Source of the DNA: Pandoraea capi
GTDB lineage: Bacteria; Pseudomonadota; Gammaproteobacteria; Burkholderiales; Burkholderiaceae
Assembly: GCF_902459735.1 (NCBI RefSeq)
Contig: NZ_CABPRV010000002.1
Span: forward strand, 372,001-436,000
Length of the DNA stretch: 64,000 nt
Direction: 5' to 3'
Part shown: positions 15,959 through 61,076 of the stretch, in pieces
Position numbering within the stretch: position 1 is the first letter of the stretch
How the letters are laid out: every line of letters begins with the position of its first letter
Notes under the pieces: model-generated
What the model was told of the DNA's origin: nothing
Seen by the model: the letters and a program-made list of their open reading frames with translations, nothing else
Databases searched by the model: none
Made by a program: the position numbers and the translations under genes

Positions 15959-17368
15959 TCAGCTCCCCTGCCCCCGGGCCTGCACGGCCGCACCACCATC
16001 ACGTTGGCGGTACCAGAGCGCGTACACGACCGATAACGCCACCACGAACGGCACGCCGTAGATCAGCGTCATGCGGAACTCGTCGGTGAAATAGGTCGTG
16101 ACGAGTGTCGCCAGCATCAGCAGCGCCCCCGCCAGACTGGCGTACGGATAGCCCCACATGCGAAAACCCAGCGACTTCGCGTCGTGCGCCCGGCGGAAGT
16201 ACAGATGCGTGACGAAGATCATCAGCCACGTGAACATCGCACCGAACATCGACACGGACATCATCAGCGTGAACGACGCTTGCGGCGCCATCACATTGAG
16301 CGCGACCGCGAGCGCAATGCCGATGCTCGAGAGCATCAGCGCGGCGACAGGCACCCCATTGCGGCTGACCTCGCCAAAGCGGCGCGGCGCATACCCCGCA
16401 CGTGAGAGCGAGAACATCATGCGGGTGGTGATGTACAACTGACTGTTCATCGCAGAGAGCGCGGCGACCAGAATCACCAGGTTGATGACGCCGGCCGCCC
16501 CCGGGATATGCGTGGCCGCCATCACCTTGACGAACGGACTGCCGTCTTCCCCGGCCGCGCTCCACGGCACGATCGCCAGCGTCAATGCCAGTGTCAGCAG
16601 ATAGAAGAACACTAGCCGGAACATCGTCGCGCGAAACGCACGGGTGATCGCGCGTTGCGGATCCTGCGCTTCCCCCGCCGCCACGGCGATCATCTCAATG
16701 CTCAGGTAGCTGAAGATCGACACGATCACGGCCACCCACATGCCCCACGCCCCTTTCGGGAAGAACCCGCCATGCGACGTGTAATTCGCCAACCCGATAC
16801 TGCTCCCCTCAGGCGCACGGAAGACGATGTACGCGCCGAGGATCAGGAACCCGACGATGGCCACGATCTTGAGCATCGAAAACGCATATTCGACCGCACC
16901 GAACACCTTGACGCTGGCCGCGTTGATCGCTATCAGGCCCGCCGAGAAGCCAACGATCCAGTACCAGCCCGGCACGGCCGGAAACCAGTATTTCATGTAG
17001 ACGGCAATGGCCGTAACCTCGGTGCCGACGGCAAATACGATCGACGACCAGTAGCCGTAGCGCACCAGAAACCCGGCCAGCGGCCCGATGTAATGCTCGG
17101 CGTAAGCGCCAAACGATCCCGACGTGGGATGCGCGACCGTCATCTCCGCCAGGCACCCCATCAGCAACAGCGCGATGGCACCGCCGATGGCATAGCTCAA
17201 CAGCACACTCGGCCCGGCGAAGCCAATGGCAAACGCGCTGCCCAGAAAGAGGCCCGTGCCGATGGCCCCGCCAATCGCAATCATCGATAACTGCCCGCTG
17301 CTCAAGCCGCGGTGCAGTCCTTTTTCTCGCTCAACAATGCTGTCGAAGCCCGGTTGTGTCGTACTCAA
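15959..17368 (-). CDS. Amino acid permease, APC superfamily (AAT family)
   Basis: A 469-residue inner-membrane transporter with about 12 hydrophobic helices. The first helix carries the AAT-family signature GAIGTGLFLGSAFAIGFAGP and the second the GGAIALLLMGCLAEM stretch. Related to GABA, proline and aromatic amino acid permeases. It is the last gene of a long minus-strand series that begins at 25094; the gap to the porin gene upstream is 59 bases, so it may be cotranscribed. The exact substrate is not deducible. Confidence 0.88.
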   Translation of the reverse strand: MSTTQPGFDSIVEREKGLHRGLSSGQLSMIAIGGAIGTGLFLGSAFAIGFAGPSVLLSYAIGGAIALLLMGCLAEMTVAHPTSGSFGAYAEHYIGPLAGFLVRYGYWSSIVFAVGTEVTAIAVYMKYWFPAVPGWYWIVGFSAGLIAINAASVKVFGAVEYAFSMLKIVAIVGFLILGAYIVFRAPEGSSIGLANYTSHGGFFPKGAWGMWVAVIVSIFSYLSIEMIAVAAGEAQDPQRAITRAFRATMFRLVFFYLLTLALTLAIVPWSAAGEDGSPFVKVMAATHIPGAAGVINLVILVAALSAMNSQLYITTRMMFSLSRAGYAPRRFGEVSRNGVPVAALMLSSIGIALAVALNVMAPQASFTLMMSVSMFGAMFTWLMIFVTHLYFRRAHDAKSLGFRMWGYPYASLAGALLMLATLVTTYFTDEFRMTLIYGVPFVVALSVVYALWYRQRDGGAAVQARGQGS

Positions 17369-17427
17369 GATCGTCTCCTGTGAATCTCGTGAATCAGGGG
17401 GATGGAAAATTAATGAGGCATGGCGGA

Positions 17428-18783
17428 TCAGAAGGTGTGCTCGATACCGACACCGATGCCCCGGTAATGCACTCCTGGCGGCGCACTTCCACCGTTAGCG
17501 CCGAAATTCGGACGCGGGGAAAAGCCGTAGCTGCCCCACGTCCGGTTGATGACCTGGTAGTAGGCGACGTACACGTCAGTCCGTCGGGAAAAGTCGTAGC
17601 GGTAGCCGAGATTGAGTTGCGTCGCGCCCAGATCGTCGGTGTTGCAGGTAGACCCGCCCACGCGCGAGCACGCGCCGTTCGTCGCGACACCGCCGCCGAG
17701 CCAGACGGAGTGCCGCCCCCCGCCGAAGAAGTGCTGAACCATCGCGTAGAAGGCGTCGCGACGGTAACGATTGAGATTGCCGGCGGTGCCGTCGTCGGTG
17801 CGATACGTCAACCGGTCCCAGCCCGCGACCCACTTCGTGTGCGCGTACGTGAAGACGATGAGCACCTTGTGGGCGTCGTCGGTCGAGCCCGTGGCCTTCG
17901 ATCCGGCGTTGGACGGATTGGCGCTCGCCGGTGCCCCCAGCCATGCCAGGCCGAAGTAGTCTTTGTGAAGCTCATAGGCATAGCGAAAGCGCAGCGGGCC
18001 GTTCACGTACTCCAGTCCGGCGCCGAAGACCTGCGGCGAAATTTCACCTGCGGGCGTCGTCACCCGGCCGTTGGAAAGCGAGTACGAGAACCGCAATTGC
18101 AGCCCCGCCCACTCCGGTGTCCAGTACTGGAGCGCGTTGCCCTGACGGCGGTTGAACGTGGCATCGGCCGCATTGTTGACACGCCCCGACTGCGTGGTCG
18201 TGTTCGGCACGTTGAAGCCCGGATTGCTCAGAATCGTGCTCAGGTCACCGGTATACGGATTGCGCACCGGCGAGCCGACGGAGAGCGTCGACCATTGATA
18301 CGGCGTATCCCAGTTGCCCAGAAATGCCGTGCCGAACGGCCCCTTGAGTCCGACGTTCGAGTTGCGCCCTCCGATGGCCCCTGTCGTCTTGCCGTCGATG
18401 GAGACCGGTGTTTCGATCTGCCAGATCGCGGCATAGCCATCGCCCAGGTCCTCCTTGCCGCGCATGCCGAAGTAGGAAATGCTTGACAGCATGCGGGTGC
18501 CGCTCATCTCGGCGGCGTTGATCGCCCCCGAGGGCGCCTGCGTCGGGCGCACCGCCGACGCAGGCGCCTGACGCGCACTCACGCTGACCCAGTCGGTCAT
18601 CGGCGTGAGGTGCCCATAGATCTGTACTTGTGCCTGCGCCAGCTCGCAGGCCCCCATGCCGAGCGCCATCGCCAGCACCGTACCCGGCATGCGCGCCCCG
18701 GCGCGTGCCGGGCCCCGCGAAGTGCTGTGCCCGCGATGAGGCCACGCCCGGCCTATCCCCCGATACCGCAACGCGCCGCGCAT
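17428..18783 (-). CDS. Gram-negative trimeric porin
   Basis: A 451-residue outer-membrane porin of the Neisseria/Burkholderia type. The mature protein begins with QVQIYGHLTPMTDW and contains the usual loops and the tyrosine/asparagine-rich strands; it ends in Phe (IGVGIEHTF), the beta-barrel assembly signal. The start is uncertain: ATG 18783 gives an unusually long basic leader before the signal peptide, while ATG 18690 (MPGTVLAMALGMG) gives a short one without positive charge. The DapA-like gene ends 6 bases upstream, so both are probably one transcript. Confidence 0.85.
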   Translation of the reverse strand: MRGALRYRGIGRAWPHRGHSTSRGPARAGARMPGTVLAMALGMGACELAQAQVQIYGHLTPMTDWVSVSARQAPASAVRPTQAPSGAINAAEMSGTRMLSSISYFGMRGKEDLGDGYAAIWQIETPVSIDGKTTGAIGGRNSNVGLKGPFGTAFLGNWDTPYQWSTLSVGSPVRNPYTGDLSTILSNPGFNVPNTTTQSGRVNNAADATFNRRQGNALQYWTPEWAGLQLRFSYSLSNGRVTTPAGEISPQVFGAGLEYVNGPLRFRYAYELHKDYFGLAWLGAPASANPSNAGSKATGSTDDAHKVLIVFTYAHTKWVAGWDRLTYRTDDGTAGNLNRYRRDAFYAMVQHFFGGGRHSVWLGGGVATNGACSRVGGSTCNTDDLGATQLNLGYRYDFSRRTDVYVAYYQVINRTWGSYGFSPRPNFGANGGSAPPGVHYRGIGVGIEHTF

Positions 18784-18789
18784 CGTGCT

Positions 18790-19695
18790 TCAACCCGGCA
18801 ACGTGAAGCCGCAAGCGGCCAACTGCGCATGCAGCCGCTCGTGCTGATCGCCTGCCAGCGGCGAGAGCGGCGGGCGCAACTGCGCCCACGCCGGGTCGTC
18901 GCGATACGACGCCAGCACCGCCTTGAGCGCCGGAATCATCGGGAACGACTGCACGATGCTGCGCACGGCGTCCGCTTTCGCCTGAAGCTCGGCACCGGCC
19001 TCGCTCGCCCATTCGCGGCACAGGCGTCCGATGATCTCCGGATGGATGTTGACGGTCGCCGAAATGCAGCCCTTCGCGCCCCGGGCCGAGGCTCGCGACA
19101 CCAGCGACTCCGAGGCCGGGAAGATGCCGAAGCCGGGGAACGCATCGAGCATCGCACTCAGGTTCTGCCAGTCGCCGGAGCTGTCCTTGATGCCCACGAC
19201 GGTCTGCGGGAAGTCGCGAATCAGCCGTTCGATGACCGGTAGCGTGATGGGCACGCCCGAGAGCGCAGGGATGTGATACAGGTACAGCCGCAAACGCGCG
19301 TCGCCCACTTGCTCGATCACACGTGCGTAGTAGCCGTAAAGCCCGTCGTGCGACAGACCTTTGTAGAAGAACGGCGGCAGCATCAGCACGCCGGCGCAAC
19401 CGCGCTCGACGGCATGACGCGTCAACGCCACGGTTTCCGGCAGCGCGCAGCAACCGGTACCGGGCAGCATGCGCCGCGTGTCGAGACCGTTGTCGACGAG
19501 CAGATCGAGCAACGCCATGCGCTCGGTAAGTCCGAGCGAGTTCGCTTCGCTGTTCGTACCAAACGGTGCGAGACCGACGCCGTGCGACAGCAACCATGCG
19601 CAATGCGCGAGAAAACGGGGGGCATCCGGCGTCAGATCCGTATGAAACGGCGTGACGACGGGCGCAAACGCCCCGGTCAATTCGTGATCGACCAT
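18790..19695 (-). CDS. Dihydrodipicolinate synthase (DapA)-family lyase
   Basis: A 301-residue class I aldolase-type TIM barrel. The Schiff-base lysine is Lys170 (VGIKDSSGD) and the partner Tyr140 (YLYHIP). The substrate loop reads GTNSE (46-50) rather than the GTTGE of true DapA, so it is more likely a catabolic member acting on a 2-oxo acid (compare hydratase-aldolases, KDG and N-acetylneuraminate lyases). It lies in the long operon with an ABC importer, hydrolases and a porin, which supports a catabolic role. Confidence 0.85.
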   Translation of the reverse strand: MVDHELTGAFAPVVTPFHTDLTPDAPRFLAHCAWLLSHGVGLAPFGTNSEANSLGLTERMALLDLLVDNGLDTRRMLPGTGCCALPETVALTRHAVERGCAGVLMLPPFFYKGLSHDGLYGYYARVIEQVGDARLRLYLYHIPALSGVPITLPVIERLIRDFPQTVVGIKDSSGDWQNLSAMLDAFPGFGIFPASESLVSRASARGAKGCISATVNIHPEIIGRLCREWASEAGAELQAKADAVRSIVQSFPMIPALKAVLASYRDDPAWAQLRPPLSPLAGDQHERLHAQLAACGFTLPG

Positions 19696-19788
19696 GACAG
19701 TTCCTGGAAGGGAGAAAGAGATGTACGGTGCTGCCGTCGCCGGGCCTCAGTGAACGAGGCTCAGCGGGTCAGGCAGGCACGGACCGCC

Positions 19789-20751
19789 TCAGGGCGACGG
19801 GTTGAGTTCGTGCAGGAATTGCAGGATTTCGCGACCCAGCGAGTCGTCGCCGGTGTCGAGATGGGCCACGACCGAGGTGTGGTTATGGTCGCGCACCTGA
19901 ACGAAGCGCGAGGCGCGTCCGTCCCGTTGCGACAGCCGATGACAGAACTCCAGCGCGTACGTATCGAGATGGGGATTCTCGAATTCCGCGACGACCGTCA
20001 TCACCGGCACCGGCATCGCTTCGACGTGCGCCATCGGGGCGTCGGTCTCGAAGCGCGCCGGATCGTCGCCGTAATACGCCACGACGCCGGGCGCGTTCGG
20101 ATTGTCAGGCAGTACGTCGGCCCGCAAGCGCGCGCTGATCAGTACCGCGCCTGCCACCTCCGGCATGATAGGTCTTACACGCGGATCGCTCAGATAGCTC
20201 GCCACGTGCGAGCCGCCGGCCGAATGGCCGATCAGCAGCATGCGCGACAGGTCGACTGCCCCCTCGCCCACGTGCTCGCCCAGATGCTCGCGCAACCAGC
20301 GCATGGCCAGTGCGACATCCTGCGCACCGCCGGGGAACGATGCCTCGGGCGCCAGCCGATACTCCACGTTCACCGCGACACAGCCCTGACGCGCGAAGTA
20401 CCGCGGTACGTTGCCGTAGATCTGCGCGTTCGCGTTCATGTCGCCTCGCACGAACCCACCACCGTGCACGAACACCACGACGGGAGCCGGACGGTGTCCC
20501 TGCGCCGCGCCGCGTGTCGGGCAGTAGACGTCGAGCCGATGCCGCGCATGCGGACCATAGGCCAGATCGCGCTCGACGGCGAAACCATCGGTCGACGCCT
20601 GCGCCAGCAGCGGCGTGTAGGTGTCGAGCACCGCACGGCGGCCGGCGGCAATGTCGTGCGTCCACTGCGGCCCGAGCGCGCGCATGCGGGCACGCGCGGA
20701 CGCCCAGCCCGCGTTGCTGGCATCACTGGCGACGAACGTCTGCCCGTCCAT
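19789..20751 (-). CDS. Alpha/beta hydrolase (esterase/arylformamidase-like)
   Basis: A 320-residue cytoplasmic hydrolase of the hormone-sensitive-lipase/kynurenine formamidase type. The oxyanion motif HGGGF is at 96-100, the nucleophile Ser177 in GHSAGG, an acid near 258 and the catalytic His in DHNHTS near 289-291. ATG 20751 overlaps the TGA of the ABC ATPase gene by one base, so translation is coupled; a TTG at 20754 is also in frame. It probably hydrolyses an ester or amide formed from, or present in, the imported compound. Confidence 0.85.
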   Translation of the reverse strand: MDGQTFVASDASNAGWASARARMRALGPQWTHDIAAGRRAVLDTYTPLLAQASTDGFAVERDLAYGPHARHRLDVYCPTRGAAQGHRPAPVVVFVHGGGFVRGDMNANAQIYGNVPRYFARQGCVAVNVEYRLAPEASFPGGAQDVALAMRWLREHLGEHVGEGAVDLSRMLLIGHSAGGSHVASYLSDPRVRPIMPEVAGAVLISARLRADVLPDNPNAPGVVAYYGDDPARFETDAPMAHVEAMPVPVMTVVAEFENPHLDTYALEFCHRLSQRDGRASRFVQVRDHNHTSVVAHLDTGDDSLGREILQFLHELNPSP

Positions 20752-21608
20752 CAATAGACCCCCATCAGTTGCGAGAGCTGCGCGATGTAACCGGCGTAGC
20801 GCGGGTGTTGCTTGATCGTCTGCGGTGAGCGCGGACGCGGCAGGTCGATGACCACCTCCTGCTCGACCTTACCCGGTCGCGCCGACATCACGATCACGCG
20901 GTCCGACAGAAACACCGCTTCCTCGATGCTGTGCGTGACGAGCAGTACCGTCTGGCGATGCTCCTGCCAGATGCGCAGCAGTTCGACGTTCAGGTTGTCG
21001 CGCGTGAGGGCGTCGAGCGCACCGAACGGCTCGTCCATGAGCAGCACTTTGGGTTCGAGCGCGAGGATCTGGCCGATGGACGCACGCTGACGCATGCCGC
21101 CGGACAGCTCATGCGGATGGTGATCCGCGAACTGCGCCAGCCCCAGCATTTCCAGCAGCGCAGACACGCGCGGCTCGCTCTTTTCCTTCGGAATCTTGCG
21201 AAGACTGGTGCCGAGCATCAGGTTCTGCCGTACGGTAAGCCACGGCAGCATGTTGCTCGTCTGGAAGACGACGCCGATCTCCGGGACCGGGCGCGACACG
21301 CGCTGCCCGCCCACACGGACCTCGCCGCCGTCGTGCGGCACGAGCCCCGCCACGATGCGCAGCAACGTGCTCTTGCCGCAGCCGCTCGCGCCGAGAATCG
21401 ACACGAACTCCTGATCTGCGATGGACAGGGATACGTCGTCGAGAATCCTCACGGGCGCGGCTTTGCGTTGCTTCGCGGCGAACGTCTTGTCGACGTGGCG
21501 CACTTCGATCATGGCCTCGGCCGGACGTGTAACGGCGGCGGGCTCCGTCGGGCGGGACGTCGGCAGCGACGTCACACTGCCCGTCTTGATGTGCTGAATG
21601 CCGCTCAT
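20751..21608 (-). CDS. ABC transporter ATP-binding protein, NitT/TauT type
   Basis: A 285-residue ATPase. Walker A GASGCGKST is at 73-81, followed by the Q-loop, the signature LSGGMRQR, Walker B VLLMDEPFGALD and the switch His in THSIEEA. ATG 21608 overlaps the permease stop (ATGA). A polar extension of about 33 residues precedes the ATPase core. It belongs to the second importer of the window, with the permease at 21605-22348 and the binding protein at 23039-24100. Confidence 0.93.
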   Translation of the reverse strand: MSGIQHIKTGSVTSLPTSRPTEPAAVTRPAEAMIEVRHVDKTFAAKQRKAAPVRILDDVSLSIADQEFVSILGASGCGKSTLLRIVAGLVPHDGGEVRVGGQRVSRPVPEIGVVFQTSNMLPWLTVRQNLMLGTSLRKIPKEKSEPRVSALLEMLGLAQFADHHPHELSGGMRQRASIGQILALEPKVLLMDEPFGALDALTRDNLNVELLRIWQEHRQTVLLVTHSIEEAVFLSDRVIVMSARPGKVEQEVVIDLPRPRSPQTIKQHPRYAGYIAQLSQLMGVY

Positions 21609-22348
21609 ACGTTGATTCCCCGCCACCAGACGAAGCGCGCCAGGCGCTCGATGCCCCAGTACAGCACCACGGCGAGCAACGTCACCATGAGAATCGCTGC
21701 GAACATGACGTCGGTGCGTGCCGCCGCCGACGCGAACACGATCAGGTGCCCCAACCCCTCCTCCGAGCCGATGAACTCGCCAACGATGGCGCCGATCACG
21801 GCGAGCGGCATGGCGATCTTCAACCCGTCGGCGAATGCGGGCAGCGCCGCCGGCAGATACAACCGCCAGAAGGTGTCCCACGGGCTCGCGCCCAGCGCCC
21901 GGAAGTGCTCATCCAGATTGCGTGCGACGGACGCCAGTCCACCCATCGTCGCGACCACGACGGGGAAGAAGGCGAACAGGAACGTCGACGCCAGCTTCGA
22001 CGCGAAGCCATACCCGAACCACACGATCATGAGCGGTGCGAGCGCGATCTTCGGCATGCTCTGCAAAGCGGTAACGAGCGGATACAACGTGCGACGGGCG
22101 AAGGCGCTGTAGCTGATGACCACACCGATCACGAGCCCACCCGCGACTGCCGCAACAAAGCCGGTCAGCACTTCGACGGTCGTCACCCATGTGTCGGCAA
22201 GCATCTGCGGATGCACTTCCCATGCGGCGCGAAAGATGGCCGACGGCGGCGGCATCAGGTACGACTGCACCTTGAAGTACGTTACGGCCAATTCCCACAG
22301 GGCGAGCAATACGCCCCAGAACACGATCGTCTGTGCGATGCGTTTCAT
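21605..22348 (-). CDS. ABC transporter permease, SsuC/TauC type
   Basis: A 247-residue inner-membrane protein with about six helices and an EAA-like loop (FRALGASPWDTFWRLYLPAALP). GGAGGAG lies 7 to 10 bases before ATG 22348, which fixes the start well inside a longer open frame. It is coupled to the ATPase downstream and preceded by a VOC-protein gene, an unusual insertion between the binding protein and the permease. Confidence 0.92.
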   Translation of the reverse strand: MKRIAQTIVFWGVLLALWELAVTYFKVQSYLMPPPSAIFRAAWEVHPQMLADTWVTTVEVLTGFVAAVAGGLVIGVVISYSAFARRTLYPLVTALQSMPKIALAPLMIVWFGYGFASKLASTFLFAFFPVVVATMGGLASVARNLDEHFRALGASPWDTFWRLYLPAALPAFADGLKIAMPLAVIGAIVGEFIGSEEGLGHLIVFASAAARTDVMFAAILMVTLLAVVLYWGIERLARFVWWRGINV

Positions 22349-22439
22349 TCGAATGTCTCCTCCGGAATACCGGTGACCGACGCGAAGCCAGTCACGCAGC
22401 CAAGCAGCTAAACGGCTGAACGATGGCGTGGCCGACGGC

Positions 22440-22997
22440 CTACGCCTTGCCGCCCGACTTCTCCTTGACCATGCCCGGCGGGGGCGGCACGACGAAGCGC
22501 TCGAACCGGAACCGGTCGAAGCTCTCGATGTTGCGCTCCCAGACTTTCGCCTCATACGGATGCTCGGCGTCGATCTGCGTCATCTCGCAATACAGCTCGA
22601 CGTTGTTGCCGTCCGGATCCTTGAACACGAGGAAGTAGTTCGCGCCGGGGCCGTGACGACCGATGCCGCGCACGATTTCGACGTTGTGCTCGCGCAGAAT
22701 GTCCACGGCCTTCTCCATCTCCTCGACGCTGTCGACCAGATACGAGAAGTGCTCCATGCCGGGGCGGCTGTAACGCGGCAAATCGTCGATGTCGGGCGAG
22801 TTGGCGGGAATCTGCGAAAGCGCCAGATCGTGGTGATCGCTGCCGGCGCGCAGAAACACCATCTGATCGTCGATCCAGTCGGAGACGGTCAGACCGAGCA
22901 CTTCGGTATAGAACTTCGCCGACTTCTGAATATCGCGCACGACCAGCACCAGATGGCCGAGACGCTTCGGATTGAGTTTGGGTTTGGGGCTTGTCAT
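22440..22997 (-). CDS. VOC-family protein (glyoxalase/extradiol dioxygenase fold)
   Basis: A 185-residue vicinal-oxygen-chelate protein. The metal ligands of the family are in place: His in LGHLVLVV, His in MEHFSYLV and Glu in NNVELYCE. AAGGAG directly precedes ATG 22997 (MTSPKPK), so the longer start at 23012 is rejected. The length and the closing VELYCE motif resemble single-module type I extradiol dioxygenases and their relatives. It lies between the binding protein and the permease of an ABC importer, so it probably processes the imported compound. Reaction not known. Confidence 0.82.
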   Translation of the reverse strand: MTSPKPKLNPKRLGHLVLVVRDIQKSAKFYTEVLGLTVSDWIDDQMVFLRAGSDHHDLALSQIPANSPDIDDLPRYSRPGMEHFSYLVDSVEEMEKAVDILREHNVEIVRGIGRHGPGANYFLVFKDPDGNNVELYCEMTQIDAEHPYEAKVWERNIESFDRFRFERFVVPPPPGMVKEKSGGKA

Positions 22998-23038
22998 CTC
23001 CACTCCTTGCATTGCCGTCGTTCACACCGCAGCGGGCG

Positions 23039-24100
23039 TCACTCGACGAACTGATTGGTATAGATGTCGGTCGCTTTGAGCGCGGGCGCGAGGTTGAAGG
23101 CATCGCGCACGAACTTCGCGGTGGCCTCCATGCGTGGCACCGGCAGCCAGCCTGGCTTATGTGAGTTCGGTCCCTTCGTCTCGCGATCGGTCTCGAGCGT
23201 GCCGATCTGGCGAATCTGTTCGACCATCACCTGCTTGTCGAGCATCGGGTACTGCGAGACGATCACGGCAGCCGACTCCTCCGGGTGCTCGCGCATCCAC
23301 GCATAGCCGCGGTAAGTGGCCTGCACGAAGCGACGCACCACGTCAGGCTTCTGCTCGATCATTTTTTCCGTCGTGACGATGCCGTTGCCGACCATGTCGA
23401 GACCGAAATCGCGATAACGCAACGAACCGATCTCACGGCCCTGCTTCGCGGCAAGCGACTTGAGCACGGGCAGATTGGCGCCTTCCCAGCATTCGGTCAG
23501 ATCGACACGTCCTTGCAGGAACGACGGATTGATGGTCGACGGATCGAGGCGCAGCAGCTTGACCGACGTCGGCGGCAGACCGTTGGCCTTGAGCCAGGCG
23601 GGCACGATGTTCTGCAACGGCGACGCACCGCCGCCGCCCATCGACATGCCCTTCAGGTCGGCCGGCTTCGCAATGGTCCGCCCGGGCTTGACGAGGTAGC
23701 AGATCGCCCCCGGCCAGACAGCGTTGATCGAGCCGACCATCTTCGTCTTGCCGCCCTGCGCACGGTTGAGCATCACGCTGATCGGATCGCCGTAGCCGAA
23801 CTCGAACAGCCCCTGATCGACTTCATTGACGGTGCGCTGACCACCGTGGCCGACGATGGCCGAGACGTCGAGTCCCGCCTCGCGGTAAAAGCCCTTGTTG
23901 ATCGCGACGATCACGCCGCCGGTACTGCCCTGCGGCAGCCATGAGAGGTTGAACTTCACTTTTGTCGGTGCGGCCTGAGCGGTCTGCGCGACTTGAGCAA
24001 CGACGGGGGTCGCCCACATCGCACCTGCACCGACAGCGCCGAGCGTTCCGGCACATACGAGCGCCGTCCACCAGCGCCGGGTCAACTGCCACTGCTGCAT
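23039..24100 (-). CDS. ABC transporter substrate-binding protein, NitT/TauT type
   Basis: A 353-residue periplasmic protein. The N-terminus MQQWQLTRRWWTALVCAG is followed by a hydrophobic stretch and a cleavage site near AQAA; it contains paired arginines but lacks the full Tat consensus. The NMT1-like domain starts with KVKFNLSWLPQGSTGG and includes the EVDQGLFEFGYGDP segment. GGAGGAGG precedes ATG 24100. It delivers the ligand to the permease encoded at 21605-22348. Family members bind nitrogen- or sulfur-containing organic compounds and aromatic acids. Confidence 0.88.
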   Translation of the reverse strand: MQQWQLTRRWWTALVCAGTLGAVGAGAMWATPVVAQVAQTAQAAPTKVKFNLSWLPQGSTGGVIVAINKGFYREAGLDVSAIVGHGGQRTVNEVDQGLFEFGYGDPISVMLNRAQGGKTKMVGSINAVWPGAICYLVKPGRTIAKPADLKGMSMGGGGASPLQNIVPAWLKANGLPPTSVKLLRLDPSTINPSFLQGRVDLTECWEGANLPVLKSLAAKQGREIGSLRYRDFGLDMVGNGIVTTEKMIEQKPDVVRRFVQATYRGYAWMREHPEESAAVIVSQYPMLDKQVMVEQIRQIGTLETDRETKGPNSHKPGWLPVPRMEATAKFVRDAFNLAPALKATDIYTNQFVE

Positions 24101-24137
24101 TGCTGCCTCCTCCTGGCCGCCATATGAGCGGCCTTTG

Positions 24138-25094
24138 TTATTTGCGCTGTGCCACGACACGGTTCTCGATGGCGCCAATGCCTTCGATCCCCGCCACCAT
24201 CACGTCACCCGCCTTGAGGTACACGCCGCGTCCCATGCCCACGCCGGTCGGCGTGCCCGTGGCAATCAGGTCGCCGGGCTTGAGCGTCAGGATCTCGGAC
24301 AGGTAGGCGATCTGCTCCGCGATGTTGAAGATCATTCCCGCCGTCGTGTCGTTCTGCATCGTTTCGCCGTTGACCGACAGCGTCATGCGCAGATTCTGGG
24401 GATCGCGAATGACGTCGCGCGGCACAAACCACGGCCCCAGAGGAGCAAAGGTATCGAAACTCTTGCCGCGAAACCAGTCGTGCGTGAACGGATAGTCGGT
24501 GCGACGGTTGAGGTCGCGCGCGCTCACGTCGTTGATGACGGTGTAGCCCGCGATCCACTCGTGCGCCTGCGCCACCGGCACGTGACGGCCCGGACGTCCG
24601 ATCACCACCGCCAGTTCGACTTCCCAGTCGACACGCTCGGCATGCGGCGGCAGCACAACGTCGGTATCGGTGGCGGTCACGCTCGTCTCCGCCTTCATGA
24701 ACATGTACGGTGAGCTTTCGCTGCGCGGCGCGAGCTTGGTGCCCATCTCCGCCGCGTGCTCGTAGAAGTTGGATGCCGTGGCAAAGATGCGGCCCGGCTG
24801 GTACGGCACGCACAGACGGAACGTGTCGGTCGCCAACGCACCGACCTTGGCCGGGACACCGGCGTCGATGGCGCGGCGCACGGCCGTGCAAACCGCATCG
24901 CCGCGAACGTACCAGTCCGAGAGCAGCGCCGTCAGATCCTGCGACGCGCTCAGGCCGTCCTCCAGCGCCACGTCCATCTGACGCAGCACGGCCTCCAGGT
25001 CATACAGCCGCCCGTGCTGCACCAGCGCCGTACGACGTGCCCCGAGCGTGCCCGTTGCCAGCGATTCATAAGTTGCGATTCCAAACCAGCTCAC
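24138..25094 (-). CDS. Fumarylacetoacetate hydrolase (FAH)-family protein
   Basis: A 318-residue enzyme of the FAH fold, which hydrolyses or isomerises 2,4-dioxo or 2-hydroxy-dienoic acids from ring cleavage, or decarboxylates oxaloacetate. The metal acids are visible as Glu158 and Glu160 (WEVELAVVIG) and Asp189 (VINDVSARD), and the KSFDTFAPLGPW loop and the closing DLIATGTPTGVG motif are typical. It is the first gene of the long minus-strand series, 93 bases downstream of the GntR-type operator at 25186-25197. Confidence 0.88.
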   Translation of the reverse strand: MSWFGIATYESLATGTLGARRTALVQHGRLYDLEAVLRQMDVALEDGLSASQDLTALLSDWYVRGDAVCTAVRRAIDAGVPAKVGALATDTFRLCVPYQPGRIFATASNFYEHAAEMGTKLAPRSESSPYMFMKAETSVTATDTDVVLPPHAERVDWEVELAVVIGRPGRHVPVAQAHEWIAGYTVINDVSARDLNRRTDYPFTHDWFRGKSFDTFAPLGPWFVPRDVIRDPQNLRMTLSVNGETMQNDTTAGMIFNIAEQIAYLSEILTLKPGDLIATGTPTGVGMGRGVYLKAGDVMVAGIEGIGAIENRVVAQRK

Positions 25095-25185: not shown

Positions 25186-25197
25186 TATGTATACATA
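25186..25197. promoter_or_regulatory. Perfect palindrome TATGTATACATA, candidate GntR operator
   Basis: A 12-base perfect palindrome in the divergent region between the FAH-family gene (start 25094) and the 2-hydroxyacid dehydrogenase gene (start 25252). The core ATGTATAC recurs at 29418, 30179 and 30320. CTATGT (25161-25166) and ACATAG (25178-25183) form a further partial dyad beside it. Confidence 0.65.
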
Positions 25198-25251
25198 GCA
25201 ACTGATTTGTATTTTATTTTTCAATCCAACGCATCGAGGCGATTAAGACCC

Positions 25252-26223
25252 ATGACCGACGCTCCGCTCCTCCTCAATCTCATCCCGCTCGAACCGCTCG
25301 CGCGGGCGCAATTGCTTGCCGCAGGACTGCGTCTGCACGATCTCGACGTGCGCACCACGCGCCTCGAATCGAGCGACATCACGCCCGGCGTGCGGCTCGT
25401 GCTGACCAACGGCACGACGGGCTTCACGGCGGCGCAAATGGACGCCATGCCACACGTCGAGCTCATCTGCGCCTTCGGTGCGGGCTTCGAGAACATCGAC
25501 GTCGCCGCCGCCACCGCACGCGGGATCGCGGTTGCGCACGCCCCCAACACCAACGGCGAGACGGTGGCCGATCACGCGCTGGCGCTGATGCTCGCGGCAG
25601 CCCGCGGGCTCGTGACGCTCGATCGCGCCGTGAAGGCCGGCGGCTGGGCCAGACATCGTGCGCCGCGTCCGACCCTGCACGCTGCGCGACTCGGCGTCGT
25701 CGGCCTCGGCAACATCGGACAAGGCATCGCAACGCGCGCCGAAGGCTTCGGCATGTCGATCGGCTATCACACGCGTACGCCGCGCACCGGTTGCCGATGG
25801 CAGCACTACGACAATGTCGACGCGCTGGCCGCTGCCAGCGACTTCCTCGTGCTCGCCTGTCCGGGCGGCCCGGCTACGCATCACCTCGTGAATGCCGACG
25901 TGCTCGCGCAACTCGGCGCCAACGGCTTTCTGGTGAACGTGGCGCGCGGCAGCGTCGTCGATACCGTGGCGCTCATCGAAGCGCTGTGCGACGGCGTCAT
26001 CGCAGGCGCCGCGCTCGACGTCTACGAGAACGAACCGGAGGTACCTTCCGCGCTGCGCATGCTGGAGAACGTCGTGCTGACACCGCACATCTCCGGCCGC
26101 TCGCCGGCGGCGTTGCAAGCGCAGATCGACTTGTTGCTGGCCAACGTGCGCGCCCATCTCTCTGGCAAACCGCTACCGGCCGCCGTCAACAGCGTCACGG
26201 GACATCGCAAAGCGAACGGATAA
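25252..26223 (+). CDS. D-isomer-specific 2-hydroxyacid dehydrogenase
   Basis: A 323-residue NAD(P)-dependent dehydrogenase that reduces 2-oxo acids such as glyoxylate or hydroxypyruvate. The Rossmann motif is GLGNIGQGIA near residue 150; the catalytic Arg is in NVARGSVVD, the Glu in ENEPEVP and the His in LTPHISGRSP. ATG 25252 is preferred over upstream starts because the upstream frame runs through the operator. It is divergent from the FAH-led operon and shares the operator palindrome, so it probably belongs to the same regulon. Confidence 0.9.
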   Translation: MTDAPLLLNLIPLEPLARAQLLAAGLRLHDLDVRTTRLESSDITPGVRLVLTNGTTGFTAAQMDAMPHVELICAFGAGFENIDVAAATARGIAVAHAPNTNGETVADHALALMLAAARGLVTLDRAVKAGGWARHRAPRPTLHAARLGVVGLGNIGQGIATRAEGFGMSIGYHTRTPRTGCRWQHYDNVDALAAASDFLVLACPGGPATHHLVNADVLAQLGANGFLVNVARGSVVDTVALIEALCDGVIAGAALDVYENEPEVPSALRMLENVVLTPHISGRSPAALQAQIDLLLANVRAHLSGKPLPAAVNSVTGHRKANG

Positions 26224-26227
26224 AAAA

Positions 26228-26267
26228 GAAGCGGGCAACCGGGAGACCATCGGAGGTTGCCCGCTTC
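26228..26267. terminator. Strong bidirectional terminator
   Basis: GAAGCGGGCAACC (26228-26240) and GGTTGCCCGCTTC (26255-26267) form a 13-base perfect stem with a 14-base loop. On the minus strand it is followed by TTTTTTA, a good U-tract for the LVIVD-protein gene; on the plus strand it follows the dehydrogenase stop by 4 bases. Confidence 0.8.
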
Positions 26268-26386
26268 AACACTTCACGCTTTGGAGGCCCTGTGAAGTCG
26301 TTCGCGGCAGCGGCACGACATTACCTGTCGTGCCGCACTGGCGTAATGCATTGACGCAGTGCCTATGAAGGCCGGTCAGCCACGTC

Positions 26387-28189
26387 TCATCGCGCCGGCC
26401 AGGGCTTTGCCGGTGCGCCCATGACCGGCTCCCCCAGCAAGGGGCTCGACAGTGCGTAGGCGCCGTTCTCGGTGAAGGCCCACATGATGTTGCGGTCGTA
26501 CTCGGTGTACATCGCGAAGACGCCCTTGCCCAGCGTGTAGACCGGCAGTTCCGTCTCGTCGGCCAACCCCGGCACGAAGTACCCGGCAATGCGCGGCTTC
26601 GCCGGATCCTTCACGTCGAAAATCTGTACGCCGGCGTTGTAGTACGAGTAAGGCACGATGCCCTGACGCCAGGTCCCCGGCTGTCCGATCGAGTTCGAAC
26701 GCTTCGGGCCGTAATTGCCGCCACGCTGGCAGAAGCTCGTGAACGGCGCGCCTTCCGGGATTTCCGGCTCGGGCAGCTTCGTCGTGACCTTCATCCTGGC
26801 GGGATTGCGCGCATCGACCACGAAGATGTCCTTGAACGGCTCGTAGCAGTCGCGGTTCATCGGATAGCCGCTGGTGAGCACATAGCCCGTGCGCTCGTAC
26901 TGGCTGACGTCGGCGTTGTCGTACTCCGTGCCTGCGAAGCTGGGCGGCGTGTTCACGTTGCCCACGACCTTCGGGTGCGCCGGATCCGACAGGTCGAACG
27001 ACCACAGCCCCAGACCGCCCATGGCGCCGAAGCCCACCTTGCCGCCCTGCTCCAGCGGCTTGGGCAGGAAGATCGGCATGCGCGAACCCATCCACGACGT
27101 ACGGTTGCCCGCGCGTGCGTTTTGCAGATACGCCTGCTCATGCTCGGCGTTGCCGAGAATCTGTCCCGGGACCGAAATCTGCGAGACGAACTTCGGATTG
27201 GCCGGGTCCGACATGTCCCACACCTGATAGCCCGGCGAGTAGAGATAGTTCGGGTACTCGGTGAGCGCGTAGCTGTCGTCCGGTGCGGACGAGAGAATCA
27301 TGTACTTGCCGCCATAGAACTCCGGCGAGTCCAGCGAACCGGAACCCTGCTGCTGGCCGACGGGAGCATCCGGATGCTTGTAGTCGGTCGTGCGCGTGGC
27401 AATCAGCTTCCAGTCGGACGGCAGCGGTCCGTCCATCACGAAGACCTTGAAGCCCTTGAGCGAGTTGTAGTTGCGTTGCGCTGCGACCTTGTCAGGCTGC
27501 TTCGACTTGTCCTGCATCAGCCCGTAGCGGCCGATTTCGAACGAGGCGACAAGGATCGGCTTGCCCAGCTTCTTGTTCCACACGATGGTGGCGCCGCCGA
27601 GATAGTCCTGCACGTTGTTGGCATCGAACTTTTCGCTCGATCCCTTCGGCCCCCATACGCCGCCTTTCGAATACACGACCTTGCCGTTCGCCGGATCGGT
27701 CACGTCCATGATGCGCAGATAGTCGCGGTCATGGATGTAGAGATAGCGCTTGCCGTTGAAGTCGGCGATGTTGTTCCACGCGTGGAACGGCGAATCCACG
27801 CCCGGGTAGAACGCCAGCACCTTCACGTTTTTCGCATAGCTCTTCTTGTCCCATGACGTCAGCTCGCCGGGAAAGCGCTGGCCCGTGTGAACTTCAGGCG
27901 TGGCCCTCGGCCAGATGAACTTGCCCGTCGCGGGGTCCATGCCGTAATCGACGCCGGCTTTGAGCGGCTTCGGTTCGCGATCCGGCGTGAGACGCAGCCA
28001 GCCCGCCAGATACGGATCCTTGACGTTGGGCGTGCCCGGTGTGCCACCCGGCTGTGCCTCGGCAGCCTGTGCCGGTTGTGCGGACGGCGTACTCTCGGGT
28101 GCCGACGCGTGGGCCGCGAGCGTCATCGTCAGCGCGGCGAGCACGGCCGTCGCTGTCAAGGACACACCGAGTGATTTCGTGCGAAACAT
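26387..28189 (-). CDS. Large secreted LVIVD-repeat (beta-propeller-like) protein
   Basis: A 600-residue protein with a signal peptide (hydrophobic core SLTATAVLAALTMTLAAHA) and a Pro/Ala-rich linker. The rest contains repeated units such as YLYIHDRDYLRIMDVTDP, YQVWDMSDPANPKFV, LWSFDLSDPAHPKVV and VQIFDVKDPAKPRIA, which match the LVIVD repeat, a presumed beta-propeller blade. AGGAGGAAGAC precedes ATG 28189. It lies 101 bases downstream of the porin gene on the same strand and is probably cotranscribed. Its function is unknown; a periplasmic or outer-surface binding or enzymatic role in the same pathway is inferred from the regulon. Confidence 0.8.
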   Translation of the reverse strand: MFRTKSLGVSLTATAVLAALTMTLAAHASAPESTPSAQPAQAAEAQPGGTPGTPNVKDPYLAGWLRLTPDREPKPLKAGVDYGMDPATGKFIWPRATPEVHTGQRFPGELTSWDKKSYAKNVKVLAFYPGVDSPFHAWNNIADFNGKRYLYIHDRDYLRIMDVTDPANGKVVYSKGGVWGPKGSSEKFDANNVQDYLGGATIVWNKKLGKPILVASFEIGRYGLMQDKSKQPDKVAAQRNYNSLKGFKVFVMDGPLPSDWKLIATRTTDYKHPDAPVGQQQGSGSLDSPEFYGGKYMILSSAPDDSYALTEYPNYLYSPGYQVWDMSDPANPKFVSQISVPGQILGNAEHEQAYLQNARAGNRTSWMGSRMPIFLPKPLEQGGKVGFGAMGGLGLWSFDLSDPAHPKVVGNVNTPPSFAGTEYDNADVSQYERTGYVLTSGYPMNRDCYEPFKDIFVVDARNPARMKVTTKLPEPEIPEGAPFTSFCQRGGNYGPKRSNSIGQPGTWRQGIVPYSYYNAGVQIFDVKDPAKPRIAGYFVPGLADETELPVYTLGKGVFAMYTEYDRNIMWAFTENGAYALSSPLLGEPVMGAPAKPWPAR

Positions 28190-28290
28190 GTCTTCCTCCT
28201 TCGTCTCAAAAGTCTTCTTGCCAGCGCCCCGATGTCGGACCCGACACACGGGCACTGGCGGCTTGATGCAGGCAACCGGAATGCGTCCGG

Positions 28291-29340
28291 TCAGAACGCG
28301 TGACGAATCCCGAACTGCACGCCCGACGGGTTTTGCGAGCCGGTCGGCGTGACCTGGAACGTCACGGGGTAATGAACGAGCGTGTCGTTGCTGTGCTGGA
28401 CACGGGCGTACGTCGCGTAAAGCGTAGTGCGCTTTGACAGGCCGTACATGTAGCCGACGACGAAACCGTTGGCGTTCGAAAGCGCCTTGTTGTCGTCGTC
28501 CTGACGATGGACAAAGCTCGCGTAGAAACGATGGCGATCGGTGAGTGCATACCGCACGCCCGCCTGAATATCCCAGCCGCGCACGTTGAAGGCGACATAC
28601 GGGGGATAGGCGTAATAGCCGTTGTACGTGTGATAGATCAGGGTCGGCTCCACGCTGCCGAACTTGTACGTCGCCGCGAAGTAGTTATCGCGCGATGAAC
28701 GGATCTGGCTCGACGAGTAGATGTCTCGCGTGTATTGCAGCTCACTGACCGCGCCGAGGAAGATGTTGCCGCTGCGGTATTCGAGTGCCGCCGAATAGAA
28801 GCGGCCCGAGCGTGTGCCGTCGCCCACACCGGTCGTTGCCATGAAGCGGGCGTTCAGGCCGTACCACGACGGCGTTTTGTACTGAATGGAGTTGTCCACG
28901 CGGTACGACGCGTAGAAGAACTCCATGTTGTTGACCATACTGAAGTCCGCCGCCCAGCTCGGGTCAGCGTACCCGGCGATCCAGTACGAGGGCGTGAACT
29001 GACGTCCCAGCGACAGATCCCCCCACGGTCCCTTGATACCGACGAACGACTGACGCGCCTGCGCCGATTGCGAACCGTTGTTGGCCGAGAACATCGGCTC
29101 ATAAGTGAAGAACGCGCGGTTGCCGCCGCCGAGTTCTTCATAACCGCTCAAGTTGAAGCGAGAGTTGTTCAGCCCGCCACTGGACACTCTCGTGACCTTG
29201 CCGCCGTTCGCGCCCGAGCCCCACAACTGCTCGAGATTCAGGTCCACGAACCCCGAAAGCGTCACACCCCCGGAAGATTGCGCATACGCACCGCCCTGCA
29301 TTGCACCCAGCAGCAATGCACACAACACTCGCTTCTTCAT
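28291..29340 (-). CDS. Gram-negative porin
   Basis: A 349-residue outer-membrane porin with a signal peptide (MKKRVLCALLLGAMQGGAYA), mature start QSSGGVTLSGFVDL, the KGPWGDLSLGRQFTP segment of loop 3 and terminal Phe (GIRHAF). AGGAGACAGC precedes ATG 29340. The candidate GntR operator stands 78 bases upstream. It probably gives the island's substrate a dedicated entry route across the outer membrane. Confidence 0.9.
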   Translation of the reverse strand: MKKRVLCALLLGAMQGGAYAQSSGGVTLSGFVDLNLEQLWGSGANGGKVTRVSSGGLNNSRFNLSGYEELGGGNRAFFTYEPMFSANNGSQSAQARQSFVGIKGPWGDLSLGRQFTPSYWIAGYADPSWAADFSMVNNMEFFYASYRVDNSIQYKTPSWYGLNARFMATTGVGDGTRSGRFYSAALEYRSGNIFLGAVSELQYTRDIYSSSQIRSSRDNYFAATYKFGSVEPTLIYHTYNGYYAYPPYVAFNVRGWDIQAGVRYALTDRHRFYASFVHRQDDDNKALSNANGFVVGYMYGLSKRTTLYATYARVQHSNDTLVHYPVTFQVTPTGSQNPSGVQFGIRHAF

Positions 29341-29417
29341 GCTGTCTCCTGATAGTTCTCGTTTTATTTGCGGCGCTCCCTTCTCTGCTACCGGGATGTC
29401 TGCCGCCCGCCCGTTGT

Positions 29418-29427
29418 ATGTATACAA
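29418..29427. promoter_or_regulatory. ATGTATACAA, candidate GntR operator upstream of porin gene
   Basis: Identical to the element at 30320-30329. A related degenerate copy in opposite orientation (GATTATACAT, 29439-29448) lies 11 bases away across TTTCGAA, giving an overall dyad. The position, 78 bases before the porin start, suits repression or activation of the porin-LVIVD unit. Confidence 0.6.
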
Positions 29428-29615
29428 TCTTTCGAACGATTATACATATCAAAGAAATTGAATTTCTACTGCTATTTGCTTATACAAACGGGCTATTTTT
29501 TTATAGCGGGTTACCCCTGATACCCGATGCGTAGCGAGTCGAGGCCGCCGCCAGCGTCACGCTGCCGGCGGGGTTTTGGGAAATACCGAGGGATGCTTCG
29601 TTCGGGTGTACCCGA

Positions 29616-30083
29616 TCAGAGACCGGTGCGATCGGCTTGCAGCCCTTCGTGGCGCAGCTTCGGAGCGTCGTCCGTGCGTGTGCCGTCTTTCGACGCGCCG
29701 CCCCAGCCGTGGGCCGTCACGTCGAAGATCACGCCGTTCGGATCGAAGAACTTCACTTCATAGAAGATGTTGCTTTTCACCGGCACTTCGCCCATGTAGT
29801 AACGGCCGCCGGCCGCTTCGATCCTCGCGCGCGTGGCCTCGACGTCCTCCACCCAGATACCGATGTGGTGCAGACCGACGTACTCACGGCCGCGATCGCC
29901 TGCGGCCTCGTCGTTCTTGTAGTTGAGCAGCGCAAGGTTGATGACGCCGTCGGAGAGATACACGCCGCGTGCCAGCGACGAGTCGGTCTCCCCCACTTTC
30001 TTGAAGTCGAACGCCTGCATGTAGAACTCGGCCGCCTTCCAGGGATCGGGCACGGAAAGGGCGATGTGACGCAGTTTGGCCAT
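29616..30083 (-). CDS. VOC-family protein (glyoxalase-like)
   Basis: A 155-residue vicinal-oxygen-chelate protein with a metal His in LRHIALSV, a second in GLHHIGIWV and a Glu/Asp near FDPNGVIFDVT; the last position is Asp rather than the usual Glu. ATG 30083 (MAKLRH) is preferred over 30125. The C-terminal 30 residues after GWGG are polar and probably disordered. It is a second VOC gene in the island with its own copy of the operator 96 bases upstream, divergent from the GntR gene. Confidence 0.8.
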   Translation of the reverse strand: MAKLRHIALSVPDPWKAAEFYMQAFDFKKVGETDSSLARGVYLSDGVINLALLNYKNDEAAGDRGREYVGLHHIGIWVEDVEATRARIEAAGGRYYMGEVPVKSNIFYEVKFFDPNGVIFDVTAHGWGGASKDGTRTDDAPKLRHEGLQADRTGL

Positions 30084-30178
30084 GGTGAATGTCTCCTTCC
30101 AGTTAGGTTTCAAGCGAAGTTTCAAGCGAATCTCAAACGAGATAACAAGCCCTGCACGAGATGTCGGGCAGATGGCTT

Positions 30179-30188
30179 ATGTATACTA
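30179..30188. promoter_or_regulatory. ATGTATACTA, candidate GntR operator upstream of VOC gene
   Basis: Shares the ATGTATAC core with the sites at 25187, 29418 and 30320. It is 96 bases upstream of the VOC start at 30083, in the region between the divergent VOC and GntR genes. Confidence 0.55.
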
Positions 30189-30199
30189 TCTCAGTGATT

Positions 30200-30227
30200 T
30201 GCATTCAAAAACGTATTTTTGAATGCA
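30200..30227. repeat. 28-base AT-rich palindrome
   Basis: Twelve-base perfect arms (TGCATTCAAAAA at 30200-30211 and its complement at 30216-30227) around CGTA. It lies 12 bases from the ATGTATACTA element in the VOC/GntR intergenic region. It has no terminator-type GC stem or T-run in a useful position, so an operator for a second regulator or a cruciform-prone site is more likely. Confidence 0.6.
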
Positions 30228-30319
30228 TTGAAGTGTCCCAATCTTTGTGGAAACCGACCAAACCACGCCCCACGTGGCGTCAGCACTGCATCGTGCGGAA
30301 AAATACTCGTATAATCCGC

Positions 30320-30329
30320 ATGTATACAA
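30320..30329. promoter_or_regulatory. ATGTATACAA, candidate autoregulatory GntR operator
   Basis: The element lies 41 bases before the GntR start at 30370, a position typical of autorepression. It is identical to the porin-upstream element. Confidence 0.6.
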
Positions 30330-30369: not shown

Positions 30370-31023
30370 ATGGCCGAAACCATTGCCGCAAGAATCTGCC
30401 GGGTGTTGACGGGCGAGATCATCGACGGAAGCCTGCCGCCGGGGCAAAAGCTGGAAGAAGTCGTGCTGGCCGAGCGTTTCAAGGCGTCGCGCACGCCGAT
30501 CCGCGAAGCGCTTCGCGAGCTCAATGCGCGAGGACTCATCGAACTGACGCCGCACAAGGGCGGTGTCGTGGCGAGCATCAGCGTCGACGATCTGTCCGAC
30601 ATGCTCGAAGCGATGTGCGAACTCGATGCCCTGTGTTGCCGTCTGAGCGCGCAGCGCATGAGCGCCATGCAGAAGAAGCAGCTCGAAATGATTCACGTCC
30701 AGAGCAAGCAATGCATGGATGCTGGCGACGAGGCAGGCTATCTGGCGCTCAACCGCGAATTCCATCAGTTACTGAGCGCAGGCACCCAGAACAAGACGTT
30801 GATGGCGCTCATCGACAGCCATCGGGAACGGCTCGCCCCTTTCCGTGCCGCGCAATCCGATGTCGAAGAGCGTTTCACGGTGTCGTTCGATGAGCACGAG
30901 CGTGTCGTCGAAGCCGTGCTCGCCGCTGATGCCGAAGCCGCTTACAACGCCATGCGCAGTCACACCGCACGCCTGAGCATTCACGTGCTCGAACGTTTGC
31001 AACACAGCCGCAAGCCTGGCTGA
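30370..31023 (+). CDS. GntR-family regulator, FadR/FCD subfamily
   Basis: A 217-residue regulator. The winged helix-turn-helix occupies residues 5-70 (GSLPPGQKLEEVVLAERF, then SRTPIREALREL) and the all-helical FCD effector domain about 80-205, with the metal/ligand histidines in NREFHQLL and the later EHERVVEAV and RSHTARLS segments. FCD members usually repress catabolic genes and are released by an organic acid. Four copies of ATGTATAC lie in front of the surrounding transcription units, including this gene. Confidence 0.9.
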   Translation: MAETIAARICRVLTGEIIDGSLPPGQKLEEVVLAERFKASRTPIREALRELNARGLIELTPHKGGVVASISVDDLSDMLEAMCELDALCCRLSAQRMSAMQKKQLEMIHVQSKQCMDAGDEAGYLALNREFHQLLSAGTQNKTLMALIDSHRERLAPFRAAQSDVEERFTVSFDEHERVVEAVLAADAEAAYNAMRSHTARLSIHVLERLQHSRKPG

Positions 31024-56450: not shown

Positions 56451-57371
56451 TCAACGCACGGCGAACTCCGGCAGCACGTCGTGGTTGCGCGGCAAGCCCA
56501 TGATTTCGCGCGCTTCCTTCGGCGTGGCGGGCTCATAGCCCATTTCGCGCACGAGACGCACTACGCGCTCGGTGAGTTGCTGGTTCGTCGCCGGCACGCC
56601 GTGCTCGTAGTACAGGTTGTCTTCGAGTCCCACGCGCACGTGCCCGCCGAGCAGCAGCGAGTTCATGGCGGATGGCAATTGCGCCGGGCCGATGCCGCTC
56701 ACGCAGAAGATGCTGCCCTTGGGCAACAGATCGACCATCGACTGCAACACACGCGGCGTATACGGCATGGCGTTCTGGAAGCCACGATGCACGCCGAGCA
56801 CGAGATTGACGAAGAACGGCTCGTCGTCGAAACCGGCGGCCGTCAGTGTGGCGAGGTCCTGCACGATGTGCGTCGGGCTGAACACTTCCCACTCGGGCTT
56901 GATACCGCGCTTCTTCATCTCCACGGCGAGATGCTTCGAGCGCTCCGGCGAGGTGTGCATCAGCAGTTCGCGGCCGCCGAAGCTCGCGATGATCGTGGTG
57001 GCATCGAGCGTGCACATCTCTGCGCCCGCATCCATCCCCTTGAGGCGTTCTTCCCAGAGGATTTCCCAGTAGCCGTTCTCGGCCTGCCCGATCATGTCGC
57101 CGTGCACGCCGCCGCCCGTCGAGTTGTTGATGACGATGTCGCACTTGTCGCGAATCCGGCGGTTGATGTCGCGATAGATCGCCGGATCGCAGGTAGCGCC
57201 GTCGTCACCCGGACGACGGGCGTGAATTGCCACGACGCTCGCGCCCGCGTTGTAGCAGTCGTAGACGTCGCGGGCGATCTCGTCCGGTTGCGTGGGCAGA
57301 TGAGGGTTCTGCGACTTGTAGGCCATGCCGCCGGTGGGCGCGATCGTGACGATGACTTTGGGTTTGCTCAT
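56451..57371 (-). CDS. BKACE-family enzyme (beta-keto acid cleavage)
   Basis: A 306-residue TIM-barrel protein of the DUF849/BKACE family, in which a beta-keto acid reacts with acetyl-CoA to give acetoacetate and a new acyl-CoA. Family motifs are clear ([48 protein letters not shown]). The usual metal motif HxHxR is read here as AIHAR (48-52): one His (His50) is kept and the first is Ala48. AGGAGACAGGC precedes ATG 57371. With the dehydrogenase upstream it resembles the carnitine CDH/BKACE pair, but the CoA ligase and crotonase suggest another substrate. Confidence 0.85.
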
Positions 57372-57444
57372 GCCTGTCTCCTGATGCGATGTCTTGTTCG
57401 ATGTCTTGTGCGATATGGGGTTGGGTCGGGGGCGTGCCCCACCG

Positions 57445-60566: not shown

Positions 60567-61076
60567 ATGGAAAGTCATTTTCAGCGCGAGGTGGGCGCGC
60601 TCTATCGCGATCATCACGGCTGGCTGCGCGGCTGGTTGCGCAAGAAGCTCGGCAATGCGCTCGATGCCGCCGATCTCGCGCACGACACCTATCTACGCGT
60701 GCTGTGCACCGGACGCGCGCCACAAGCCGACGACTCCCGACGCTACCTCGCGCGCATCGCCAACTGTCTGGTTGTCGATCTGTTTCGCCGACGTCACCTC
60801 GAAGCGGCTTACCTTGAGACACTGGCCGCGCTACCGGCGCCGGTCGCGCCATCGCCCGAGACACGCGCGCTGGTGCTCGAAGCGCTCGTCGAAATCGACA
60901 CCCTGCTCTCCCGCTTACCCGCCAAGGCCCGCACCGCCTTCCTGCTTTGCAAGCTCGAAGGCCTTGGCTATCGCGAGATTGCCGAGCGATTGCAGGTCTC
61001 GGTGTCGTCAGTGGAGAAGTACGTCGCGCAGGCGCTGCGCGAGTGCTATGCCGTGCAGTACGGGAGCGACGCATGA
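60567..61076 (+). CDS. ECF sigma factor, FecI type
   Basis: A 169-residue extracytoplasmic-function sigma factor. Region 2 spans about 5-75 (DAADLAHDTYLRVL, then YLARIANCLVVDLFRR) and region 4 about 105-160 (LPAKARTAFLLCKLEGLGYREIAERLQVSVSSVEKY pattern). ATG 60567 gives the usual short N-terminus; the frame is open back to 60513. It would direct RNA polymerase to the receptor gene once the receptor senses its iron chelate. Coupled by ATGA overlap to the fecR-like gene. Confidence 0.92.
   Translation: MESHFQREVGALYRDHHGWLRGWLRKKLGNALDAADLAHDTYLRVLCTGRAPQADDSRRYLARIANCLVVDLFRRRHLEAAYLETLAALPAPVAPSPETRALVLEALVEIDTLLSRLPAKARTAFLLCKLEGLGYREIAERLQVSVSSVEKYVAQALRECYAVQYGSDA

Follow-up and report, generated by a model that had tools for sequence, protein, structure and literature searches.

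The gene island and its transcription units

The window analyzed here, a 64,000-nucleotide (64-kb) stretch of a Pandoraea capi genome (5.85 Mb, 31 contigs), contains a gene island with a GntR/FCD regulator of 217 aa (gntR; 30370..31023, plus strand; PF00392, PF07729). On the minus strand lie a second VOC (glyoxalase-fold) protein (29616..30083; PF00903), a porin (28291..29340; PF13609), and an LVIVD-repeat protein (26387..28189; PF08309, a weak match with E 1.3e-05). A D-2-hydroxyacid dehydrogenase family protein (25252..26223, plus strand; PF02826, PF00389) is divergent from an FAA hydrolase family protein (FAH; 24138..25094, minus strand; PF01557), which opens a long run of genes. The remainder of this run (15959..24106, minus strand) comprises eight genes, namely a substrate-binding protein (NMT1), a first VOC protein (VOC1, extradiol-dioxygenase-like), an ABC permease, an ABC ATPase, an alpha/beta hydrolase, a DapA-like aldolase, a second porin, and an amino-acid permease; these were identified by domain scans, apart from the ABC ATPase and the second porin, which were named by eye.

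An earlier note, made from the sequence alone, had proposed a regulon of about 14 genes, and the count holds (9 + 1 + 2 + 1 + 1) provided that the close-packed FAH-led run extends to the amino-acid permease. Its spacing suggests that the run is co-transcribed to its last genes. Between 15700 and 25100 a consensus scan returned no promoter and terminators were no more frequent than in shuffles, so that the scan leaves the end of the operon unfixed. VOC1, FAH, and the aldolase resemble the HpaD, HpaG, and HpaI models with scores far below the curated cut-offs, and we therefore claim no pathway. Among the titles listed in literature searches none dealt with this Pandoraea cluster, although such a paper may still exist.

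Four palindromes upstream of the island units

The motif ATGTATAC gives five strand matches in the window, corresponding to four places (25187, 29418, 30179, and 30320), all intergenic; the first, ATGTATACAT, reads the same in both directions as a perfect palindrome and is therefore counted once per strand. These are exactly the places that the earlier note had listed, and there are no others in the window. In 100 shuffles of the window the motif occurred 0.23 times on average and at most twice. The shorter GTATAC occurs at seven places, four of which are the ATGTATAC sites, and the other three (18251, 56758, and 62036) fall within long open reading frames (17428-18783, 56451-57563, and 60947-62077, respectively) and lack the ATG extension, as had been described.

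The gene map likewise agrees with the assignment of the four sites to the island units. Predicted operator 1 (25187..25196), the perfect palindrome ATGTATACAT, lies at the junction of the FAH-led run and the 2-hydroxyacid dehydrogenase gene; operator 2 (29418..29427; ATGTATACAA, one mismatch to the perfect palindrome) lies upstream of the minus-strand porin-LVIVD unit, operator 3 (30179..30188; ATGTATACTA, two mismatches) upstream of the minus-strand second VOC gene, and operator 4 (30320..30329; again ATGTATACAA, one mismatch) upstream of gntR.

Reading by eye, we find that operator 1 overlaps a TTGAAA-18-TATACA promoter-like element for the plus-strand gene and falls between the two hexamers of a weak TTGCTA-17-TATTGT element on the minus strand, in a region where the consensus scan gave no promoter. 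Operator 3 overlaps TTGAAT-17-TATACA on the minus strand and operator 4 begins 5 bp past a TATAAT at 30310-30315, both also read by eye. The porin promoter, a TAGAAA-18-TATAAT match at 29468-29439 with operator 2 just downstream, is the only one to pass the consensus scan, and it does so at chance level (0.8 expected in that stretch). These positions fit repression.

The motif is clustered at the island but not exclusive to it

The earlier note had named many equally good sites in unrelated places as evidence that would count against a regulon, and we scanned the genome for them. The strict pattern ATGTATACWW occurs at only six places in 5.85 Mb, four of them in the island and within 5.2 kb. 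Looser scans are less favorable: ATGTATACAT with up to one mismatch has 13 places, 3 in the island, as compared with 12 for the reversed control pattern, and TGTATACW has 8 places, with more matches for its reversed control (12 + 17 vs. 7 + 7). The reversed controls of the looser scans thus keep level with the motif or exceed it, which means that the motif shows clustering at the island and no enrichment across the genome; the case accordingly draws its strength from clustering and conservation and not from genome-wide numbers.

Outside the island, perfect ATGTATACAT is also found together with TTATCCACA in a conserved intergenic block (at about 1456-1555 of locus L005, G000:C3 near 58624). 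This block is present in 22 of 43 outside-island loci, made up of 40 of the 42 outside-island places in other genomes among the matches listed, with two G017 places left out, plus L005, L006, and L038. For seven of these 22, the genome (G002, G005, G007, G009, G013, G016, or G021) has no regulator orthologue. We take TTATCCACA to be DnaA-box-like, and the block is possibly an origin element. The second outside ATGTATACWW place is an MFS/LysR junction that recurs in four genomes, one of which (G002) has no regulator match. As both outside places also occur in genomes without the regulator, a wider regulon elsewhere in the genome was rejected and neither place was added to it. Separately, an extra off-island ATATGTATACATA site with no clear adjacent gene is common to three closely related species (L081, L083, and L087; from G001, G004, and G008 only).

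It is very improbable that the island sites themselves are accidental or have another function, whether as part of a replication-type element or as promoter elements rich in TATA. The TATACA hexamers read by eye under sites 1 and 3, the recurrence of the same 10-mer in the TTATCCACA block, and the looser counts no higher than in reversed controls would all be consistent with such an origin, but the full palindrome stands at the same junctions where the regulator is only 64-68% identical (see below), and chance in particular is ruled out by the shuffles, none of which reaches the observed count, together with the placement of 4 of 6 genomic occurrences in the island.

A further copy of the core, TGTATACA, is found at L038 (1501-1508; G000:C10:36119) in the gap that separates a TRAP-type transporter gene from another gene of the GntR type, both recognized by reading the translations, and for this reason more than one regulator probably uses the core; cross-talk or a common core is possible at this second locus. 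The motif is thus not exclusive to the island regulator, being present both in the element of regulator-less genomes and at this other GntR/TRAP locus. Dual roles in activation and repression are known in the FadR group. Together with the TGTATACA copy upstream of another GntR-type gene in the same genome, they lend something to a different reading of the four sites, namely that the operators are real while the regulator is an activator or has both roles, or that other FCD proteins with the same core bind them as well. We consider this reading unlikely, given that each of the four sites overlaps or immediately adjoins a promoter-like core (mostly identified by eye), which is the position of a repressor, and that they accompany this particular regulator in all close and distant loci examined except one (L076).

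Conservation in Pandoraea and in distant relatives

At E <= 1e-40 the regulator has a match in 21 of 32 genomes of the genus, and 19, our own included, have an orthologue of 95-100% identity. All 18 other orthologous loci were fetched; the order of the island genes is unchanged in every one, and the four sites stand at the same four junctions; the LVIVD gene in L042 and the second porin gene in L046 each appear as two hits, and the stretch available for L052 ends inside the aldolase gene. Operators 1, 2, and 3 are identical in 19/19 aligned loci and operator 4 in 18/19, the outer base of the gntR site being changed from A to G in L052 (GTGTATACAA). Invariant core positions accordingly number 10, 10, 10, and 9 of 10 for operators 1-4, and the invariant share of the remaining aligned stretches is 45, 48, 26, and 23%. 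In 14 of the 19 loci, operators 3 and 4 stand 140-142 bp from each other, and in the other 5 the distance is 151 bp, longer by about one helical turn; such a step would suit a tetramer that loops the DNA between two palindromes, but it is no more than suggestive and may reflect a single indel.

The motif as such is present in 32/32 genus genomes. Apart from G028, 12 genomes lack an island orthologue; 8 of them were checked, and in none do three sites fall within 10 kb, the most being two, in G017. In G028 the cluster is rearranged and diverged, with two regulators (65 and 58%) and a single GTGTATACAC that lies between regulator and FAH.

We examined ten distant loci with regulators of 54-68% identity, leaving two Roseburia loci (29% identity) out of the counts, and found the site in some form in nine. 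Seven loci of the Roseateles/Paucibacter/Pelomonas type (L068-L070 and L072-L075; regulator 64-68%) have perfect ATGTATACAT at both the FAH/dehydrogenase (HADH) and the second VOC (VOC2)/GntR junctions, whereas L071, where no other island gene was found, has it at VOC2/GntR only. In six of L068-L075 a site also precedes a porin-like gene, in four cases perfect, with GTGTATACAT in L070 and ATGTATACAA in L072; this gene is only 29-32% like the second porin of the window. L077 (54%) has ATGTATACAC before VOC2. The exception is L076 (60%), with no other island genes and neither WGTATAC nor GTATACW in the 20.6 kb examined. GTATAC is also absent from the 3.6 kb around each of the paralogues L027, L029, and L030 (42-43%). 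Across 399 genomes of the order, with the best candidates (up to seven) scored in each, three had a regulator match at 1e-60, our own included, and the two others (regulators 55-58% identical) have ATGTATACAT before FAH.

A second palindrome 20 bp away

At the FAH junctions of the relatives, a sequence xTGAATACAA lies exactly 20 bp from the perfect palindrome in 7/7 cases, and at the VOC2 junctions xTGTATTCAA or xTGTATGCAA lies at the same distance in 8/8. G033 has two perfect copies and G206 has GTGTATGCAC as the partner, and the porin-junction partners of the Roseateles group are heterogeneous. This pattern was first noticed by eye and then tested: among the 73 offsets, 20 scores highest over ten representative sites and its value is reached at any offset by 0/2000 shuffles, and the same holds for the value at offset 20 in the six non-Pandoraea representatives (0/2000). 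For the four Pandoraea sites alone offset 20 is not significant, with 1189/2000 shuffles reaching the value at some offset; its rank of 73 is 7, 1, 2, and 56 for operators 1-4, respectively, and 20 for G028.

In the island, a candidate weak second operator (GATTATACAT; 29438..29447) lies 20 bp from operator 2, at the best of the 73 offsets, and overlaps the porin -10 element. Two further candidate weak operators (TTGCATTCAA and TTGAATGCAT; 30199..30228) lie 20 and 40 bp from operator 3 and form the arms of an inverted repeat in the VOC2-gntR gap (30200-30227; 12-bp arms TGCATTCAAAAA/TTTTTGAATGCA), which covers the VOC -35 element read by eye and whose arms occur nowhere else in the genome. We read this repeat as a candidate pair of weak operator copies. 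The true operator of the regulator clade may then be a tandem, in which a strong ATGTATACAT is followed at exactly 20 bp, or two helical turns, by a weaker palindrome, so that two dimers or one tetramer would bind cooperatively along a single face of the helix. In the island, degenerate copies of the partner would survive at two and perhaps three of the four operators. We put this forward tentatively and regard it as somewhat less likely than not. A literature search did not find such a 20-bp tandem layout described for the VanR type.

The regulator protein and the predicted regulon

The regulator has an N-terminal GntR winged helix-turn-helix (PF00392, E 3.2e-14) and a C-terminal FCD domain (PF07729, E 4e-24), both above the cut-offs. 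The six-helix form of the FCD domain is the VanR type, and the structural model, which is fairly confident (pLDDT 86.6), has six C-terminal helices (72-96, 99-117, 121-137, 142-160, 166-184, and 188-213); by its model the protein is an FCD-type, VanR-like GntR regulator. Against the NCBIfam models of named regulators (PhnR of the Burkholderia type, CsiR, NanR, and others), the best score was 114.8 bits for TIGR03338, with a cut-off of 271.5.

In Foldseek, ranks 1-9 are entries of Atu1419 at 26-29% identity, with PmiR at rank 11; by sequence, PmiR is the best solved relative (7xp0, E 7.6e-23) and Atu1419 the third (3.3e-16). Residues E30, R41, T42, and R45 align with the Atu1419 DNA-contact residues E34, R45, T46, and R49, and N128, H132, H176, and H198 align with its metal ligands N137, H141, H192, and H214, giving a putative metal site of one Asn and three His as in Atu1419; all eight residues are invariant in 19/19 orthologues.

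We are highly confident in predicting that the four palindromes are operators through which this regulator represses all island units, its own gene included. A regulator dimer, perhaps a dimer of dimers as in Atu1419, would bind each 10-bp GT-N2-AC palindrome, which overlaps or adjoins the unit's promoter core, and would repress every unit of the island, gntR included, until an effector, perhaps a carboxylate or a pathway intermediate at the FCD metal site, releases the regulator. Here we infer binding, repression rather than activation, the effector, and the operon ends. The GntR regulon proposed in the earlier note is supported by four sites against 0.23 expected and by the joint presence of site and regulator in 18/18 genus orthologues and 9/10 distant loci, and judged from these sequences it is real, well conserved, and very probably autoregulated. 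It offers a testable regulon for a catabolic/uptake cluster common to Pandoraea and Roseateles-type bacteria.

Comparison with known systems

The predicted regulon is ordinary in kind, with an operator already known from Atu1419, and its members are new. According to PMC7797058, Atu1419 of Agrobacterium fabrum is a VanR-type FCD GntR repressor of hydroxycinnamate degradation with several sites, including one in its own promoter region, and its operator, established by EMSA and crystals, is ATGTATACAT, with R45 reading G3. Atu1419 (PDB 6z74, 6za0, 6za3, 6za7, and 6zab) is the nearest fold to our regulator and has the same DNA-contact and metal-ligand residues; its operator is identical to operator 1, and in Pandoraea, too, ATGTATACAT or close variants are predicted operators at the target promoters, that of the regulator gene included. 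Regulator fold and operator both match this solved pair, which supports the earlier note's reading of the palindromes as targets of the GntR protein. The two systems differ in sequence (26-29% identity), in target genes, and in site quality, with three perfect operators and one degenerate described for Atu1419 and one perfect and three near-perfect here. Nor are the tetrameric form of Atu1419 and its effector, methylenetetrahydrofolate, known to carry over to the Pandoraea regulator.

PMC4494728 gives the FCD C-terminal domain seven or six helices and describes FCD systems that, like the island, have A/T-rich GT-N2-AC palindromes, divergons with single or double sites, and additional weaker boxes near the main site; those boxes lie 7-12 nt from the site center, whereas the second palindrome in the relatives examined here is 20 bp off. 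PmiR of Pseudomonas aeruginosa (7xp0 and 7xp1) is closest among solved proteins by sequence and takes rank 11 by fold. To see the operator of the structurally solved Atu1419 in another regulator lineage is useful for studying how FCD regulators that share a core avoid cross-talk.
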